Source: a virus. From it: a stretch of DNA of 28,894 nucleotides. Of the stretch, positions 7,680 to 28,560 are shown one piece after another. Each line of letters starts with the position of its first letter. Within the stretch, counting starts at the first letter, position 1. Made by a program: the position numbers and the translations under genes. Where the stretch lies: IMG/VR virus record IMGVR_UViG_3300027747_004163, positions 1-28,894 of that record; one strand, 5' to 3'. The notes beneath the pieces were generated by a model, which was not told the DNA's origin, searched no databases, and was given only the letters and a program-made list of their open reading frames with translations.

Positions 7680-8681
7680 ATGCTCAGCTACAAACAATGG
7701 AAGCAATTAAACGAATCAGTTTTTGGTTCATTCCCACTAGGTTTATCACAGACTCAATCGTTAGGAATATCTTCAAACGTAGAGGGCGCTGAAATTGAAG
7801 GTGTAGATTTAGAAGAAGGCAGAAAAAAGAAAAAAGTTGAAAAAGATAGTGATATAGTTGTTGCTGCCGAAGAAAAAGATAAGCCAGGATCAGATAGCTG
7901 TGGATGCTCAAAGTGTTCAAAATGCGGCAAAAACTGCAAAAACATGCTTTCAGACGAAGATGATGCTGATAATGAAGATGAAGAAGAGGATAGGGATGAA
8001 GAAGATGCCGAGGATGAGGATTCCGAAGAAGATGAAGATGATGAGGATTCCGAAGAAGATGAAGATGAGGAAGATGAGGATGATGAGGATTCCGAAGAAG
8101 ATGAGGATGAGGATGAGGATGAGGATGAGGATGAGGATGAGGATGATGAAGAAAAAGCTCCAAAAATGATGAAAAAGAAGATGAAAAAAGAAGAGAGAGA
8201 GTGGCTAGGCAGTCTTTTAAATCAAATTGGTGATCCCACTCAAAAGTTCGACAGCGGATTCTCAGACGGTAATTTCTCAGCTGATGAAGCCGGTCCAGGA
8301 GAAGTTGGTTATGCTCCATCTGGAAGAATTGCAGATAATTTCACACCAGTCACAGAAGCTTCAGAAGGATTAACTGCAAAACAAAAAAAACTTCCCAAGG
8401 CTTTACAAGATGCAATTCTTAAAAAGAAAGGCATAAAGTCTGATAAAGATAGTGACGAAAAAGAGTCAGAAGAATCTGGCGAAAAATCTGATAAAGACTC
8501 AGAAGAATCAAGTGAAAAAGGCTCAGATGCCAGCGTAGAAAAGCACTTAAAAGCTTGTCTTAAGAAAAATCCCAAAGCTTCTTTCAAAGAAGCCAAAGAT
8601 TATGTAAAGAAGCAAAAAGGTATGGAAAAGTGCAAAGTGACTTTAAAAGATTATCTTGTTTGTAAGAAAAAATCAAAATGA
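7680..8681 (+). CDS. Acidic repeat protein with capsid-targeting-like N-terminus (possible prohead core protein)
   Basis: A 333-aa protein in modules. It begins MLSYKQWKQLNES, resembling the T4 capsid-targeting peptide (MKTYQEFIAEA), and LNE-S fits the (L/I)xE cleavage rule of the T4 prohead protease gp21. Next is a cysteine cluster (CGCSKCSKCGKNC, residues 74-86, five Cys) that could bind metal. Residues about 91-159 are almost purely Asp/Glu, encoded by tandem repeats. Then follow a Lys/Met basic block, a possible folded segment, a Ser/Glu/Lys-rich linker and a C-terminal helical domain with Cys (VEKHLKACLKKNPKASFKEA). Shine-Dalgarno AGAGGT is present. It may be an internal scaffold/core or DNA-mimic protein; no family is recognised. 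Start of an overlapping three-gene run. Confidence 0.75.
   Translation: MLSYKQWKQLNESVFGSFPLGLSQTQSLGISSNVEGAEIEGVDLEEGRKKKKVEKDSDIVVAAEEKDKPGSDSCGCSKCSKCGKNCKNMLSDEDDADNEDEEEDRDEEDAEDEDSEEDEDDEDSEEDEDEEDEDDEDSEEDEDEDEDEDEDEDEDDEEKAPKMMKKKMKKEEREWLGSLLNQIGDPTQKFDSGFSDGNFSADEAGPGEVGYAPSGRIADNFTPVTEASEGLTAKQKKLPKALQDAILKKKGIKSDKDSDEKESEESGEKSDKDSEESSEKGSDASVEKHLKACLKKNPKASFKEAKDYVKKQKGMEKCKVTLKDYLVCKKKSK
8100..8141 (+). repeat. (GATGAG)7 hexamer tandem repeat in acidic protein gene
   Basis: Seven perfect GATGAG units encode alternating Asp-Glu. Upstream, three near-identical copies of GAGGATTCCGAAGAAGATGA (starting near 8017, 8042 and 8087) show that the acidic region grew by tandem duplication. 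Copy number is likely to vary between isolates without breaking the frame. Confidence 0.9.
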
Positions 8682-9739: not shown

Positions 9740-10279
9740 TTATGATTCTAAGTACGCTCTATCATATCGAAGAGTTAAATCTATAGTAACAACATCACTG
9801 GTGCTCATATCAAGATCACCAAACTCTATAGAGTTTGGCCATACATTCTCTAAGATCCATTTCTCTATGGTTTCACCAGAGCCATCGAATAACTCTAGAG
9901 AGCATTTGCCCATTTTAAATCCAGATGCGCTAGGCTTCCAAGCAGACCCAGCTGATGTAACCTCATATGATTTTTTAATCCATTCCATAACTGGATTTTT
10001 ATTTTTTTTAATATCATATAAGCTTAAATTTATTGGTTTCCAGTCGGGTTTGCTTGGAAAGTAAATTGTTTCGTTTATATGTTGAGCATCCATTTCTTTA
10101 AACGTTAATCCTGGTCTTCCGCCTTTAAATGGAGGAAGGCACGGGCAGCCGGATCCATCCTCTACTTTTCTGGCTGAAACATTATCTATAAAAAATAGCC
10201 ATCTATTTTTGCGTTTAAAACAAACTTTTGGATCATTGAGTGCTCCATCTCCATAATCCCATCCCATTGGTCTTCCCAT
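9740..10279 (-). CDS. Second gp19-like tail tube protein (tube or tube-initiator paralogue)
   Basis: A 179-aa protein of the phage tail-tube (gp19) fold. Shared with the neighbouring tube protein are an N-terminal FKRKNRWLFFID matching FKRKYRWTFSLA, SLELFDGSGETIEKWIL, and the C-terminal VWPNSIEFGDLDMSTSDVVTIDLTLRYD. These are the family's hallmark segments (WPxSIxFGxLDxSxSDxxTxxxTLRY). In T4 the gp19 paralogue gp54 starts the tube on the baseplate, so this copy may have that job or may be a minor tube subunit. It follows the first tube gene on the same strand but is separated by a strong terminator, so it needs its own promoter. No clear Shine-Dalgarno. Confidence 0.85.
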   Translation of the reverse strand: MGRPMGWDYGDGALNDPKVCFKRKNRWLFFIDNVSARKVEDGSGCPCLPPFKGGRPGLTFKEMDAQHINETIYFPSKPDWKPINLSLYDIKKNKNPVMEWIKKSYEVTSAGSAWKPSASGFKMGKCSLELFDGSGETIEKWILENVWPNSIEFGDLDMSTSDVVTIDLTLRYDRAYLES

Positions 10280-10302
10280 AATACTTTATTTAGTATAAAT
10301 AT

Positions 10303-10341
10303 AAAAAAAAATGCAAGATTGCGAACAATCTTGCATTTTTT
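10303..10341 (-). terminator. Terminator after the tail tube gene
   Basis: Stem 10306-10321 with 10326-10341 (16 bp, core ATGCAAGATTG), loop CGAA, and a T run on the minus strand (complement of the A run 10303-10311). It starts about 10 bases after the stop of 10352-11005. The symmetric A/T flanks would let it act on both strands. Confidence 0.92.
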
Positions 10342-10351
10342 ATGGTTGATT

Positions 10352-11005
10352 TTATTTGCAGCCAACCGGTGTGCATGGATCAAACTTTTTCATGCAACCC
10401 TCGGCTGATGGGTTATACTGTACTTCCGAATATCTTAGTGTAACTTCAACTGTAGCCTCATCACTACTAGAGTAATCAAGCTCACCAAAGCTAATAGACT
10501 GTGGCCAAACGTGACCTAAAACCCACTGCTCTAAAACTTCTCCGCTGCCATCGTACATATTTAATGTAGCCGTGCCAGCATATCCACCCGGACCGCTGAT
10601 CCCGGCGCCAGCCAAGAGAGCTGTCCCCAGTGGCGCAGCTGCGGGTCCATATCCACCTCTGACTGAAGATTGATATAAGTCTACGTTTGAATGAAAAGCA
10701 TATACTCCACTTAACCATTTGTACAGATTTGTTATATCATTCTTGCCCTGAGTGCTGCCCTTTTCCAGTACATCATAAAAAGTTACGGAGGTTGTCTGCC
10801 AAGAAGCTTTTCCTGGTATCCACATTTTTCCATGTAAATAATTTATTTCTGTATCATCTATATCTAATTGCGGTCTATTTGCGACTTTAACCACAGTAGC
10901 TGGAATGTCGCCGCAGGATGTAGCTAGAGAAAATGTCCATCTATATTTACGTTTGAATATAGTGTTTGCTCCCGCCAGAATCCCTAACCCCATAGGTTGT
11001 GCCAT
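10352..11005 (-). CDS. 19: Tail tube protein, gp19-like
   Basis: Forms the inner tube of the contractile tail. The 217-aa sequence has the gp19 signature: FKRKYRWTFSL near the start, ASWQTTSVTFYDV, ATLNMYDGSGEVLEQWVLGHVWPQSISFGELDYSSSDEATVEVTLRYS. It is longer than T4 gp19 (163 aa), with a Gly/Ala/Pro-rich insert (about residues 112-142) and a Cys-containing tail. A strong Shine-Dalgarno (AAGGAGA) precedes the ATG. It lies 26 bases after the sheath gene and before a strong terminator, reproducing the T4 order 18-19, and is probably the major tube subunit. Confidence 0.92.
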   Translation of the reverse strand: MAQPMGLGILAGANTIFKRKYRWTFSLATSCGDIPATVVKVANRPQLDIDDTEINYLHGKMWIPGKASWQTTSVTFYDVLEKGSTQGKNDITNLYKWLSGVYAFHSNVDLYQSSVRGGYGPAAAPLGTALLAGAGISGPGGYAGTATLNMYDGSGEVLEQWVLGHVWPQSISFGELDYSSSDEATVEVTLRYSEVQYNPSAEGCMKKFDPCTPVGCK

Positions 11006-23174: not shown

Positions 23175-23318
23175 ATGGATTATTATTACATATTCTATAA
23201 AATATTAGAAGATCCAAGATGCATAAAGCACTACAAAGATCTATTGTGTTATTATAAAAGTAAAAATAAACAAAATTTTATAGCCGCAATAGAAAATTTG
23301 ATTGAAAAAATAAAATGA
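23175..23318 (+). CDS. Small 47-aa protein coupled to glycosyltransferase gene
   Basis: The ORF from ATG 23175 ends in an ATGA overlap with the next gene. It encodes a 47-residue Tyr/Lys/Ile-rich helical peptide (MDYYYIFYKILEDPRCIKHY at the start, FIAAIENLIEKIK at the end). Coupling to the downstream gene supports a real product, possibly a partner or translation-coupling leader for it. No Shine-Dalgarno is evident. Confidence 0.5.
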   Translation: MDYYYIFYKILEDPRCIKHYKDLLCYYKSKNKQNFIAAIENLIEKIK

Positions 23319-24253
23319 ATGACAATTTATCTTTTTGTATTGTTACAAAAAATAACGAAGAAACTTTGCCGAGCTGCATAGAATCTTTTTTTGATATTTG
23401 CACGAATATTTCTTATATCGACATGGGATCAACAGATAAAACTATTTCTATACTGGAGAAATACAATGGAAAAAAATTTAAAAAAATAAATGAAGATTTT
23501 GCCTCTAATAAAAATCATTTGATAAATAGTGTCAAAAAAAATTGGCTATTTTTCATTGAGCCAAATGAAAAAATTATAAATGGAAAAAAAGAAATACTGG
23601 ATATTTCTAATAAAAAAGAGGGAATATACAGCATTCTGCTTTTACAAAATGAAGTTTTATCTAAGACGACAAGATTTTTTTGTGATAATAAAATAAAATT
23701 TGAAAATCCAATTTTTGAAACAATATATTCAAAATCTTCTTCCTCAAATATAATTTTGAAAGAATTAACCCTAAGAGAATACCCAGATGAATACGAACAA
23801 ATATTAAAATGGAAATCTAAAGATCCTTTAAAAACACATCCACTTTATTATGAATCATGTTTTTATATTAAAAACAAAAAATGGGAAAATTTTATTAAGA
23901 CAGCTGAAAAGTATCTTTTCATGGAAAAAGATACTAACTTACCAAGTTATATTATGATTAAATATTACCTTTCTTTAATTTTATTTTATACACAAAAAAA
24001 TATTGAAAAATCAATGCAAACAATAGGCTTCTGCATAGAAAAAAATCCCACTATGGCTGAGTTTTGGTGTTTACTCGGAGATATTAATTTTGAAATGAAA
24101 AAATATCAAAAAGCATATTATTTTTATGATAATGCTATAATATTAGGTTCTCAAAGATTAAATGGCGATGAACTGCCAATAGATGTTAAGAAATACAAGG
24201 AATACCCAGATAAAATGAAGATTATATGCAAAGATTCAATAAACAAAGTCTAG
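23315..24253 (+). CDS. GT2-like glycosyltransferase with C-terminal TPR-like repeats
   Basis: Residues 1-100 follow the GT-A fold of family 2: LSFCIVTKNNEETLPSCIES, then SYIDMGSTDKTISIL (the usual D-x-G-S-x-D-x-T signature), DFASNKNHLINS and WLFFIEPNEKI, where the family normally has a metal-binding D-x-D-E. Here it reads E-P-N-E. The C-terminal half has paired helices with the TPR look (YYLSLILFYTQKNIEKSMQTIGFCIEKNPTMAEFWCLLGDINFEMKKYQKAYYFYDNAI), as found in some protein glycosyltransferases. It might decorate virion proteins or host surface glycans; the altered acidic motif leaves activity uncertain. The 3' end overlaps the convergent gene by 18 bases. Confidence 0.7.
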   Translation: MNDNLSFCIVTKNNEETLPSCIESFFDICTNISYIDMGSTDKTISILEKYNGKKFKKINEDFASNKNHLINSVKKNWLFFIEPNEKIINGKKEILDISNKKEGIYSILLLQNEVLSKTTRFFCDNKIKFENPIFETIYSKSSSSNIILKELTLREYPDEYEQILKWKSKDPLKTHPLYYESCFYIKNKKWENFIKTAEKYLFMEKDTNLPSYIMIKYYLSLILFYTQKNIEKSMQTIGFCIEKNPTMAEFWCLLGDINFEMKKYQKAYYFYDNAIILGSQRLNGDELPIDVKKYKEYPDKMKIICKDSINKV

Positions 24254-25365: not shown

Positions 25366-26394
25366 ATGTCTGAAGAAGTTTTCCGCCCCAGAAAACCCGA
25401 AGAAAATTTAGAGAAATTAAATGCCGCAGAATCCATTAGACAAGCTGCATCTGGAGAATCAAAAAGACCAGAGGGACAAATGCCCTTTGAAGTCAAAGGA
25501 AATGTCCCCTCCGAATTTTTAAGGGCTATGGGGCAAAATATTCCAGAAGCCGATCCGCAAATATCACCATCATCAATAGACAGACAACCTGTATCAGGAA
25601 ATTTAAAAGATCTACTGGAGGATTTGAAGCAATCAACCTCTGTTTATGAAGAGGTTCGACTTCCATCAAGGGGAATTTTTTATGATGGCGATAATGGACC
25701 TTCAGACGGAATACTACACATAAGACCAATGACAGGCGAAGAAGAACAAATATTGGCTACCCCGAGGTTCGTCAGAAAAGGTCAAGCTTTAAACATGATA
25801 TTCTCCAGATGCATAAAGGATAAGATCAGACCAGAGGATCTTCTCACAGTAGATAGAACATATTTATTGATATACCTAAGAGGTATATCTTATTCTCCTT
25901 TATATGAAGTTGAAATAAAATGCCCAGAGTGTGAAAGAAAGTTCTCAACAGAAATTGACTTGAATACCCTGATGGTTGAATCAGCCCCAGATGACTATGG
26001 TCCATCGCTCGAAGGTATTTTACCAACCTCGAAGTACTCGTTCAGATATAGATTATCTAAGGGTAAAGATGAAACTGATATTCAAGAACATAGAGATCGA
26101 AGAATTAAAAACTTTGGAGATAATTCAACTGATGACACATTGATATATAGAACATCTGTTTTGGTTGATGAAATTCAAGGAATAACAGATAAAAGAGATC
26201 TCCAGACATTGATTAAAAATCTCCCGATTTCAGACGTATCTTATATTAGAAATTGTGTTAACGAACCTCCCTTCGGTGTAGATACAAAGGTAGATATGGC
26301 TTGCCCTAGCTGCCTACAAGAATTTGATGTGGATCTTCCGCTTGAAGCAAATTTTTTCTTCCCGCGTCGGAGGAGGGAGAAAACGCAAGCTTAA
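25366..26394 (+). CDS. 26: Baseplate hub assembly protein, gp26-like
   Basis: Belongs to the T4 baseplate protein family (Pfam T4_baseplate, gp26). Diagnostic segments: VYEEVRLPSRGIFYDGDN (residues about 93-110), DGILHIRPMTGEEEQILATPRFVRKGQALNMIFSRCI (114-150), EDLLTVDRTYLLIYLRGISYSPLYEVEIKCPEC (157-189). Two CxxC pairs (186-189 CPEC, 313-316 CPSC) probably form a zinc site. At 342 aa it is longer than T4 gp26 (208) because of a polar N-terminal 90 residues and the zinc-region insert. An AAAGG Shine-Dalgarno precedes the ATG. The last codons (CGT CGG AGG AGG GAG) are unlike the AGA-dominated arginine usage nearby and form a Shine-Dalgarno-like stretch next to an overlapping -1 frame. Confidence 0.88.
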   Translation: MSEEVFRPRKPEENLEKLNAAESIRQAASGESKRPEGQMPFEVKGNVPSEFLRAMGQNIPEADPQISPSSIDRQPVSGNLKDLLEDLKQSTSVYEEVRLPSRGIFYDGDNGPSDGILHIRPMTGEEEQILATPRFVRKGQALNMIFSRCIKDKIRPEDLLTVDRTYLLIYLRGISYSPLYEVEIKCPECERKFSTEIDLNTLMVESAPDDYGPSLEGILPTSKYSFRYRLSKGKDETDIQEHRDRRIKNFGDNSTDDTLIYRTSVLVDEIQGITDKRDLQTLIKNLPISDVSYIRNCVNEPPFGVDTKVDMACPSCLQEFDVDLPLEANFFFPRRRREKTQA

Positions 26395-26399
26395 GCTTG
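26369..26399 (+). promoter_or_regulatory. Possible -1 ribosomal frameshift signal at the end of the gp26-like gene
   Basis: In order: a purine stretch GGAGGAGGGAG (26369-26379) able to pair with 16S rRNA, AAAA within GAG AAA ACG, and a perfect 14-base palindrome CAAGCTTAAGCTTG (26386-26399) around the gp26 stop codon, able to form a 5-bp hairpin. An open -1 frame begins here and continues to 26576. The slip sequence is not a classic X-XXY-YYZ heptamer, and the hairpin sits closer than usual. Confidence 0.4.
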
Positions 26400-26576
26400 T
26401 GGGAAAACCTGGCAGAAGAAATCTTCTTCTTTCAATATCACATGCGACAAAGCATGAAAGATACTATGATCTTGCCTATTAACCTCAGAAAATGGTTAAT
26501 ACAAAGATATATACAACAAAAAGAAAAAGAGAACGAACAAATGGAAGCAGAAAGAAGAAAAATTAGAAAGAGATAA
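26397..26576 (+). CDS. Small tail/baseplate assembly ORF without AUG start, -1 frame to gp26
   Basis: The frame encodes LWENLAEEIFFFQYHMRQ, then SMKDTMILPINLRKWLIQRYIQQKE and a charged end (MEAERRKIRKR): a helical protein with the W-E-x-x-A-E-E-x-F/aromatic and L-P-x-x-x-R-x-W pattern seen in phage tail-assembly chaperone C-terminal pieces. The conserved-looking part begins before the first ATG (26442), so translation must start at TTG 26397, where no Shine-Dalgarno is suitably spaced, or enter by a -1 frameshift from gp26 near 26380-26385. It ends 2 bases before the next gene. A gp51-like role is possible but not recognised from sequence. Confidence 0.6.
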   Translation: MWENLAEEIFFFQYHMRQSMKDTMILPINLRKWLIQRYIQQKEKENEQMEAERRKIRKR

Positions 26577-27333: not shown

Positions 27334-28560
27334 ATGGATAAAATATTTGTCAGCATAGCATCATATAGAGATGCTCAATTAATACCAACATTAAAAGATT
27401 TATTAAATAAATCAAAAAATCCAGACAATTTAACCTTTGGAATATGTTGGCAGCATGGGGATGACGAAAATTTAGATGAGTTTAAAAATGACCCAAGATT
27501 CAAGATAATTGATATAAACTATAAAGATAGTAGAGGGGCTTGTTGGGCTAGGAGTAAAGTACAAGAGTTATACTCTGGGGAGAAGTACTACTTTCAACTA
27601 GATTCTCATCATAGATTTCTCCCAGAGTGGGACTCTAAGCTCGTAGAAATGTATAAAGGGTTGAAATCCGACAAGCCATTATTGACAGGTTATTGTACTG
27701 TCTTGGATATGAAAAATGATCAAAAATTAAATAATCAGCCTTTAAAAATAGTTGGATTTGAAACTTTTTCCCAAGATGGAAACTTAATGCTTAAGCCGCA
27801 TTATGTTGATGAATTTAGAACCTTAACCGATCCTATTCCCGCAAGATTTGTTTCTGGGCATTTTGTATTTGTACATGGTAAATGGGTTGAAGAGTGCGGC
27901 TATGATCCTAATTTGTACTTTCACGGAGAAGAAGTAAGTCTGAGCGTAAGATCGTACACACACGGATATGATTTATTTCACCCCCATTATTCAATAATAT
28001 GGCATCAATACATCAGAGAGGGCGACAAGAAACACTGGGATGATCACACAAAAGATAATCCTTGGTGGAATCTTGACTCAAAAGCAAAAAAAAGATTAAG
28101 AAAATTATTGCAACAAGAAGAAAATGATGAACATTTGGGAAAATACTGCTTAGGCACAGCCAGATCTTTTCATGATTATGAACTGTATACAGGAATTGAT
28201 TTCAAAAATAAAAAAATAGGATCCAAAGCTAAAAGGGGACAAAACCCTTATATCATGACCGAAGAAGAGTGGTTAAAAGATTTTGAAAACAAATATAATT
28301 TGAATTTATCTTGGGATCCAAAAGATGTGTCATCGAGGGACGATTGTGATTTTTGGTTCTTTGGAGTAGAAGACGTTGATAATAAGTTAATTTTTAGAAA
28401 TGATTTTTTTCCTGAAAAAAATAAAGAAATAATGGATAAAAAAATCAATATGTTTAATGCTGTTTTTGACTCTAATTCAAATCCCCACCACTTTGTTATA
28501 TGGGCACATAGTAAAAAAGATGGATGGCTTGAGAAGTACACAAAAGAAATCAAAGGTTAG
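27334..28560 (+). CDS. Glycosyltransferase of the GlcNAc-transferase (PF11397) family
   Basis: A 408-aa enzyme of the GT-A fold family typified by the Skp1 hydroxyproline GlcNAc transferase. Family motifs are plain: KIFVSIASYRDAQLIPTLKDLL at the start, FGICWQHGDD, DSRGACWARSKVQELYSGEKYYFQLDSHHRF, with Asp90-Ser91-His92 as the D-x-H/D-x-D metal and sugar-nucleotide site, then ARFVSGHFVFVHGKWVEE and FHGEEVSLSVRSYTHGYDLFHPHYSIIWH. The extra C-terminal 120 residues are variable. It would move GlcNAc, or a similar sugar, from UDP-sugar to a protein or glycan acceptor in the cytoplasm. A weak AGGA Shine-Dalgarno is present. It is last on the plus strand and meets the convergent gene at its stop. 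Confidence 0.85.
   Translation: MDKIFVSIASYRDAQLIPTLKDLLNKSKNPDNLTFGICWQHGDDENLDEFKNDPRFKIIDINYKDSRGACWARSKVQELYSGEKYYFQLDSHHRFLPEWDSKLVEMYKGLKSDKPLLTGYCTVLDMKNDQKLNNQPLKIVGFETFSQDGNLMLKPHYVDEFRTLTDPIPARFVSGHFVFVHGKWVEECGYDPNLYFHGEEVSLSVRSYTHGYDLFHPHYSIIWHQYIREGDKKHWDDHTKDNPWWNLDSKAKKRLRKLLQQEENDEHLGKYCLGTARSFHDYELYTGIDFKNKKIGSKAKRGQNPYIMTEEEWLKDFENKYNLNLSWDPKDVSSRDDCDFWFFGVEDVDNKLIFRNDFFPEKNKEIMDKKINMFNAVFDSNSNPHHFVIWAHSKKDGWLEKYTKEIKG

Follow-up and report, generated by a model that had tools for sequence, protein, structure and literature searches.

A gp26-like phage gene with a conserved slippery heptamer is predicted to give two proteins by -1 frameshifting, in the manner of lambda gpG and gpGT

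The stretch of DNA analysed here, called the window below (28,894 bases of an IMG/VR virus record), contains a gp26-like gene that probably yields two proteins by programmed -1 slippage at the heptamer U UUU UUC, in a manner similar to that of lambda gpG and gpGT; we estimate the probability of this reading at roughly 86%. According to the proposed mechanism, most ribosomes would read to TAA 26392 and give a gp26-like protein of 342 aa, and a minority would slip back one base on the heptamer and give a protein of 403 aa, predicted to consist of gp26 residues 1-331 and 72 residues of the -1 frame. Binding of the tape-measure or hub protein may fall to the domain common to both products, and recruitment of the next tail component to the extension; both products presumably leave before the virion is complete. 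The same two products would come in T4 from separate genes, namely gp26 (domain only) and gp51 (domain and tail). We infer the slippage and its rate, the chaperone function in the window phage and the ancestral order of events from comparative data. The coordinates of the features are collected in Table 1.

Table 1. Features of the gp26-like locus, in positions of the window
Feature	Position	Strand	Basis and remarks
gp26-like gene, 342 aa	25366..26394	+	Open reading frame; PF12322 T4_baseplate / phrog_150; zero-frame product is the putative short chaperone form
Whole open -1 stretch	26346..26576	+	Translation; begins behind TGA 26343-26345, 6 nt upstream of the heptamer; stop TAA 26574-26576
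Slippery heptamer T TTT TTC, gp26 frame	26352..26358	+	Sequence; 80/80 relatives; 62/62 distinct genes
-1 extension, 72 codons and stop	26358..26576	+	Translation, purifying selection, profile links; putatively equivalent to the C-terminal tail of T4 gp51
Purine run GGAGGAGGGAG	26369..26379	+	Coding for Arg-Arg (gp26 frame) and Glu-Glu-Gly (-1 frame)
Palindrome CAAGCTTAAGCTTG	26386..26399	+	Only in the window, L001 and L002 of 57 distinct relatives; probably incidental
Zero-frame stop TAA of the gp26-like protein	26392..26394	+	Sequence; 40 nt past the heptamer start

The gp26-like protein matched the Pfam profile PF12322 (T4_baseplate) with E 3.5e-18 and 66.5 bits, the curated cut-off of this family being 24.5 bits, and a PHROG search gave phrog_150, 'baseplate hub', with E 2.6e-22. 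This gene is the sole PF12322 copy in the record of the window. An earlier sequence-only reading of the same DNA had recognised the gp26-like open reading frame and the overlapping -1 frame, and had noticed that the best protein-like part of the latter lies before its first ATG. Both observations are correct: the -1 frame is open over 26346-26573, and the motif LAEEIFFFQYH precedes ATG 26442. The same reading regarded the slip heptamer as imperfect, which was an error, because a perfect T TTT TTC is located just outside the interval it had considered; attention had gone to the AAAA tract instead.

In the gp26 frame the slip site reads AAT TTT TTC TTC, and after a step of one base back the re-pairing is perfect (TTT TTT). 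Relatives with 52-89% identity were fetched from IMG/VR, and all 80 of them have an in-frame TTTTTTC 31-46 nt upstream of the gp26 stop and a -1 frame that is open from the heptamer to 167-242 nt past this stop. Thus, an in-frame slippery heptamer of the X XXY YYZ type with an open -1 frame behind it was found in 80/80 relatives. The heptamer and the -1 open reading frame were also found on a contig in a Neisseriaceae MAG, on two further contigs and in LR756511, where the heptamer is 70 nt upstream of the gp26 stop; a second scan of viral contigs gave mostly the same loci again. At the other 20,763 codon positions of the same genes in-frame TTTTTTC did not occur even once, and the junction therefore exceeds chance, the heptamer counts coming from related sequences and hence not being independent trials. 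The codons N/S-TTT-TTC are invariant across 62 distinct genes, with all three synonymous third positions fixed and the N/S codon ending in T. Elsewhere in these 62 genes Phe is encoded by 425 TTT vs 382 TTC and Asn by 692 AAT vs 519 AAC, and for the Pro codon two positions downstream of the slip all four codons are used.

Past the gp26 stop, substitutions in 16 pairs were distributed over -1 codon positions 1/2/3 as 74/56/259, and dN/dS was far less than 1 in every case where an estimate of dS was possible. This pattern indicates that strong purifying selection acts on the -1 frame and that the frame encodes a protein; together with the synonymous fixation at the heptamer, the pattern represents the evolutionary constraint expected for a -1 frameshift. 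The consensus of the extension is FFLP..EEG..LAEEIFFFQYH....LPINLRKW.I.RFI.QKE, and it is conserved over its full length, including the part before any start. The idea, already put forward in the sequence-only reading, that gp26 is linked through a -1 frameshift to an overlapping frame lacking an AUG, as in lambda G/GT, receives strong support from comparative data. A Pfam match of the extension to Tma16 (2.4e-5) was judged probably spurious, as it concerns a charged helix and a eukaryotic family. The extension (window 26352-26573) also has a weak Pfam match to DUF6760 (PF20546), with E 0.045.

The mechanism suggested earlier for this junction was different and followed dnaX: an SD-like GGAGGAGGGAG, a slip on AAAA and a hairpin formed by CAAGCTTAAGCTTG. 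The arginine codons CGG AGG AGG (26368-26376), the AAAA tract (26380-26383) and the palindrome around the gp26 stop do exist, but these elements are not conserved and are situated downstream of the real slip site. Comparison of the junction across relatives, proposed at the same time, gave a constant frame relation (80/80) and conservation neither of the purine stretch (GGAGG in 15/57 distinct relatives) nor of the palindrome (3/57). Owing to its position downstream of the slip site, the purine run is not an upstream SD of the dnaX type. The palindrome hairpin and the downstream GGAGG were accordingly rejected as stimulators, and the AAAA slip site was rejected as well, because by inspection the heptamers there permit no re-pairing and the tract varies between relatives.

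Conserved RNA structure directly after the slip was not detected (z near 0 over 40 nt). A modest fold signal over 80-120 nt after the slip, with mean z about -1.5 to -1.6, may reflect self-complementary codons of the conserved motif. An SD sequence upstream of the slip is absent in 68/81 of the window clade. In cyanophages, GAG is preferred to GAA at one Glu position ahead of the slip (43/51 genes vs 26% elsewhere), and this preference creates an SD-like sequence, GAGGG, some 10 nt upstream (L107, L109, L115-L194). It is possible that GAGGG stimulates slippage, since it sits where a dnaX-type element would; it is missing from the window clade.

Related loci show a variety of decoding arrangements. 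In 79/80 cyanophage-type loci, T TTT TTC was found 10 nt before the gp26 stop, with the -1 frame coding a tail, and the second Phe of the slip is TTC in 51/51 sequences vs 134/492 elsewhere. In one cyanophage contig (L120, 1501-2240) the slip-site stretch is deleted and gp26 is joined in another frame, by a real deletion or an assembly error. A -1 overlap with TTTTTTC or TTTTTTT was found in PA5oct-like phages (PAC2, L103), Atu_ph07, XacN1 and RAS14, and a +1 overlap in SP-15, LIS04, GXN1, Mel-JY01 and LR756508. In SP-15, LIS04 and GXN1, the reading passes to the +1 frame near a common xCC CGA TTY stretch at the 3' end of gp26 (L082:3170-3230, L083:3150-3210, L084:3170-3230), which, with its slow CGA codon, is a candidate +1 slip site. 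The direction of the shift, -1 or +1, also varies among known G/GT genes (PMC5009743).

The short cyanophage open reading frame called 'gp51' corresponds to the extension, as it codes a homologous C-terminal tail directly after gp26, but it is annotated as an independent truncated gene and, in S-SCSM1, as 'baseplate hub assembly catalyst'. Cyanophage gp51 was described as being without the first ~200 aa (Sullivan et al. 2010, PMC3037559). A link between this open reading frame and frameshifting was not found in the open-access literature.

T4 gp26 and gp51 are both members of PF12322 (8.8e-64 and 3.9e-52), the family of the window protein. With 249 aa, gp51 is 41 aa longer than gp26 (208 aa) and comprises the domain and a C-terminal tail, gp26 being the domain only. 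The T4 proteins differ from the window products in that each has a gene of its own, the two lying on opposite strands, and no frameshift is involved. In profile comparison, the gp51 tail was matched by the cyanophage extension (96%, 3e-9), with reversed controls <2%. The whole cyanophage fusion aligns to gp51 residues 8-246 of 249 (99.1%, 7e-19), through the slip point at residue 235, and the alignment of T4 gp26 to this fusion ends at the slip point. The window-clade extension is similar to that of the +1 group (98%, 7e-14), and the latter to those of the cyanophages (64%, 6e-5) and the jumbo group (89%, 2e-6). In direct profile comparison with gp51, neither the window-clade extension (0.6% against the tail) nor the whole-fusion profile of the window gave a significant match, and the link between the window extension and the gp51 tail appears to be indirect, running via the +1 and cyanophage groups.

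Two PF12322 copies were found in T4, 44RR and Stupor, and a single one in each of 17 further genomes or long contigs. A tree built from the shared domain shows gp26 and gp51 as a sister pair (98/89) that branches with cyanophages and is separate from the window, jumbo and +1 groups. The profile matches between extensions and tail, the copy numbers and the tree together suggest that a single frameshifting gene came first and was duplicated in the T4 lineage; because the root of the tree is not fixed, this order of events is what we infer. It seems quite likely, on these sequence comparisons, that the T4-type ancestor made a short and a long chaperone from one frameshifting gene, which the window phage, the cyanophages and several jumbo phages apparently continue to do, and that the T4 lineage duplicated this gene into gp26 (short) and gp51 (long, an in-frame fusion), so that the G/GT rule would hold for T4 also.

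Independent initiation is the strongest of the rival explanations, although an improbable one. According to it, the extension would be translated on its own as a small protein, from TTG 26397, from ATG 26442 or from a different start of the -1 open reading frame, possibly with coupling to gp26 termination. A TTG is indeed located 2 nt past the gp26 stop in the window, an ATG follows shortly behind the slip in 39/51 distinct sequences from cyanophages, and separate short genes were called by annotators in S-SCSM1 and Cygsa01. In S-SCSM1 (L108:2675-2720) TTTTTTC is kept and the extension is in another frame with an ATG; Cygsa01 (L111:2300-2315) has no perfect heptamer, and its stop and start codons overlap as TAATG. 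These two phages are possible escapes from frameshifting. With the SP-15-like +1 phages, they are the distant relatives in which the frame relation differs; within the window clade, no relative with a normal ATG and SD or with a variable frame, which would have spoken against the frameshift, was encountered. Against separate initiation, in 26/56 distinct extensions of this clade the EE-FFF motif is preceded by no ATG, GTG or TTG, 43/56 have no ATG there, and a start with an SD-like sequence was found in just one of the 56. Moreover, separate initiation explains neither the frozen synonymous sites of the heptamer nor the in-frame fusion of the T4 gp51 tail to a gp26 domain.

Slippage of the RNA polymerase, adding or dropping a U in the T6 tract so that an edited message is translated normally into the fusion, is less probable still. 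The conserved element is a T6 run, one extra U in the message also gives the -1 frame, and T7 runs are present at the slip in XacN1 and RAS14. However, bacterial polymerase slippage usually requires longer runs, of about 8-9, and selection extends over the whole heptamer, its last C included, and over the codon register, in agreement with tandem re-pairing of tRNAs. That the overlap is open by chance or is left over from a broken gene, without a product, is very improbable in view of the -1 open reading frame conserved in 80/80 relatives under strong purifying selection and of the homologous extensions in cyanophages and +1-type phages.

The proposed -1 slippage in the window gene invites comparison with lambda G/GT, which was reportedly studied by Levin (1993) and by Xu, Hendrix and Duda (2004, 2013, 2014). 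As far as the arrangement of the sequence goes, the locus is G/GT-like: one gene, two predicted products, a slip site near its 3' end and an extension without its own start. In lambda, two products arise by -1 slippage near the 3' end, with a short downstream open reading frame that has no AUG. The PF12322 genes as a group share with G/GT a direction that is -1 or +1 in different phages and a role in tail or hub assembly. The window protein differs from gpG in being larger and a Cys-containing PF12322 member, with no sequence relation to gpG detected, and in having U UUU UUC as its slip site. No recognised tape-measure gene adjoins the gp26-like gene in the window, where the neighbouring open reading frames on the downstream side are unassigned, and no gpG/TAC family matches of the window protein were found in Pfam or PHROGs. 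A match of the SP-15 protein to phrog_508 was non-significant (E 0.19). In SP-15 and LIS04, the gene is placed between the tail tube gene and a large tail/tape-measure gene.

The two lambda products, gpG and gpGT, attach to the tape measure and bring in the tube protein, and neither is in the virion (PMC5009743). The T4 proteins gp26 and gp51 are classed as chaperones of hub assembly, and gp51 is required but absent from the particle (PMC3004832). From this role, the lambda parallel and the position of the SP-15 and LIS04 genes, a two-product tail chaperone of the G/GT type appears to be the best reading of the window gene; the binding partners of its two products are presumed by analogy. The annotation 'tape measure protein assembly chaperone' in Acinetobacter phage Stupor covers gp26/gp51/gp28 and expresses the same role, and it states neither a frameshift nor an origin from a single gene.

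In the review literature, G-T frameshifting is considered to be widely conserved 'except T4' (PMC5009743), and in another review T4 gp51 is described as essential and of unknown function. In our opinion, the gp26/gp51 family appears to supply the missing G/GT case, with one frameshifting gene in many relatives and two paralogues in T4. If this is true, gp51 receives the role of gpGT, and the 'truncated' look of cyanophage gp51 is explained. The role of gp51 becomes testable through the gp26:gp51 ratio and binding to the tape-measure protein gp29. Many phage annotations probably miss a fusion protein that assembly of the tail requires. In the open-access literature, no paper was found that connects gp26/gp51 with frameshifting, and baseplate or cyanophage cases are absent from the PRFect paper; as this search covered open-access papers only, the priority of the proposal is not certain.

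Searches of solved structures gave no usable match for gp51 (PDB sequence and fold searches) and no match for the window protein (PDB sequence search). An AlphaFold2 model of a gp51 has a mean pLDDT of 82.9; its domain is predicted with confidence and its helical tail (206-249) with low confidence. The model of the window protein is weaker (mean pLDDT 73.7) and matches those of SP-15 and other members of the gp26 family.

Some other open reading frames of the window deserve mention. Two adjacent ones at 9740-11005 (minus strand), of 179 and 217 aa, are similar to each other and may, judging by their sequences, be paralogous tail tube-like proteins. A 333-aa open reading frame at 7680-8681 has a long Asp/Glu repeat run, and two glycosyltransferase-like ones, recognised by eye at 27334-28560 and 23315-24253, are situated amid structural genes.
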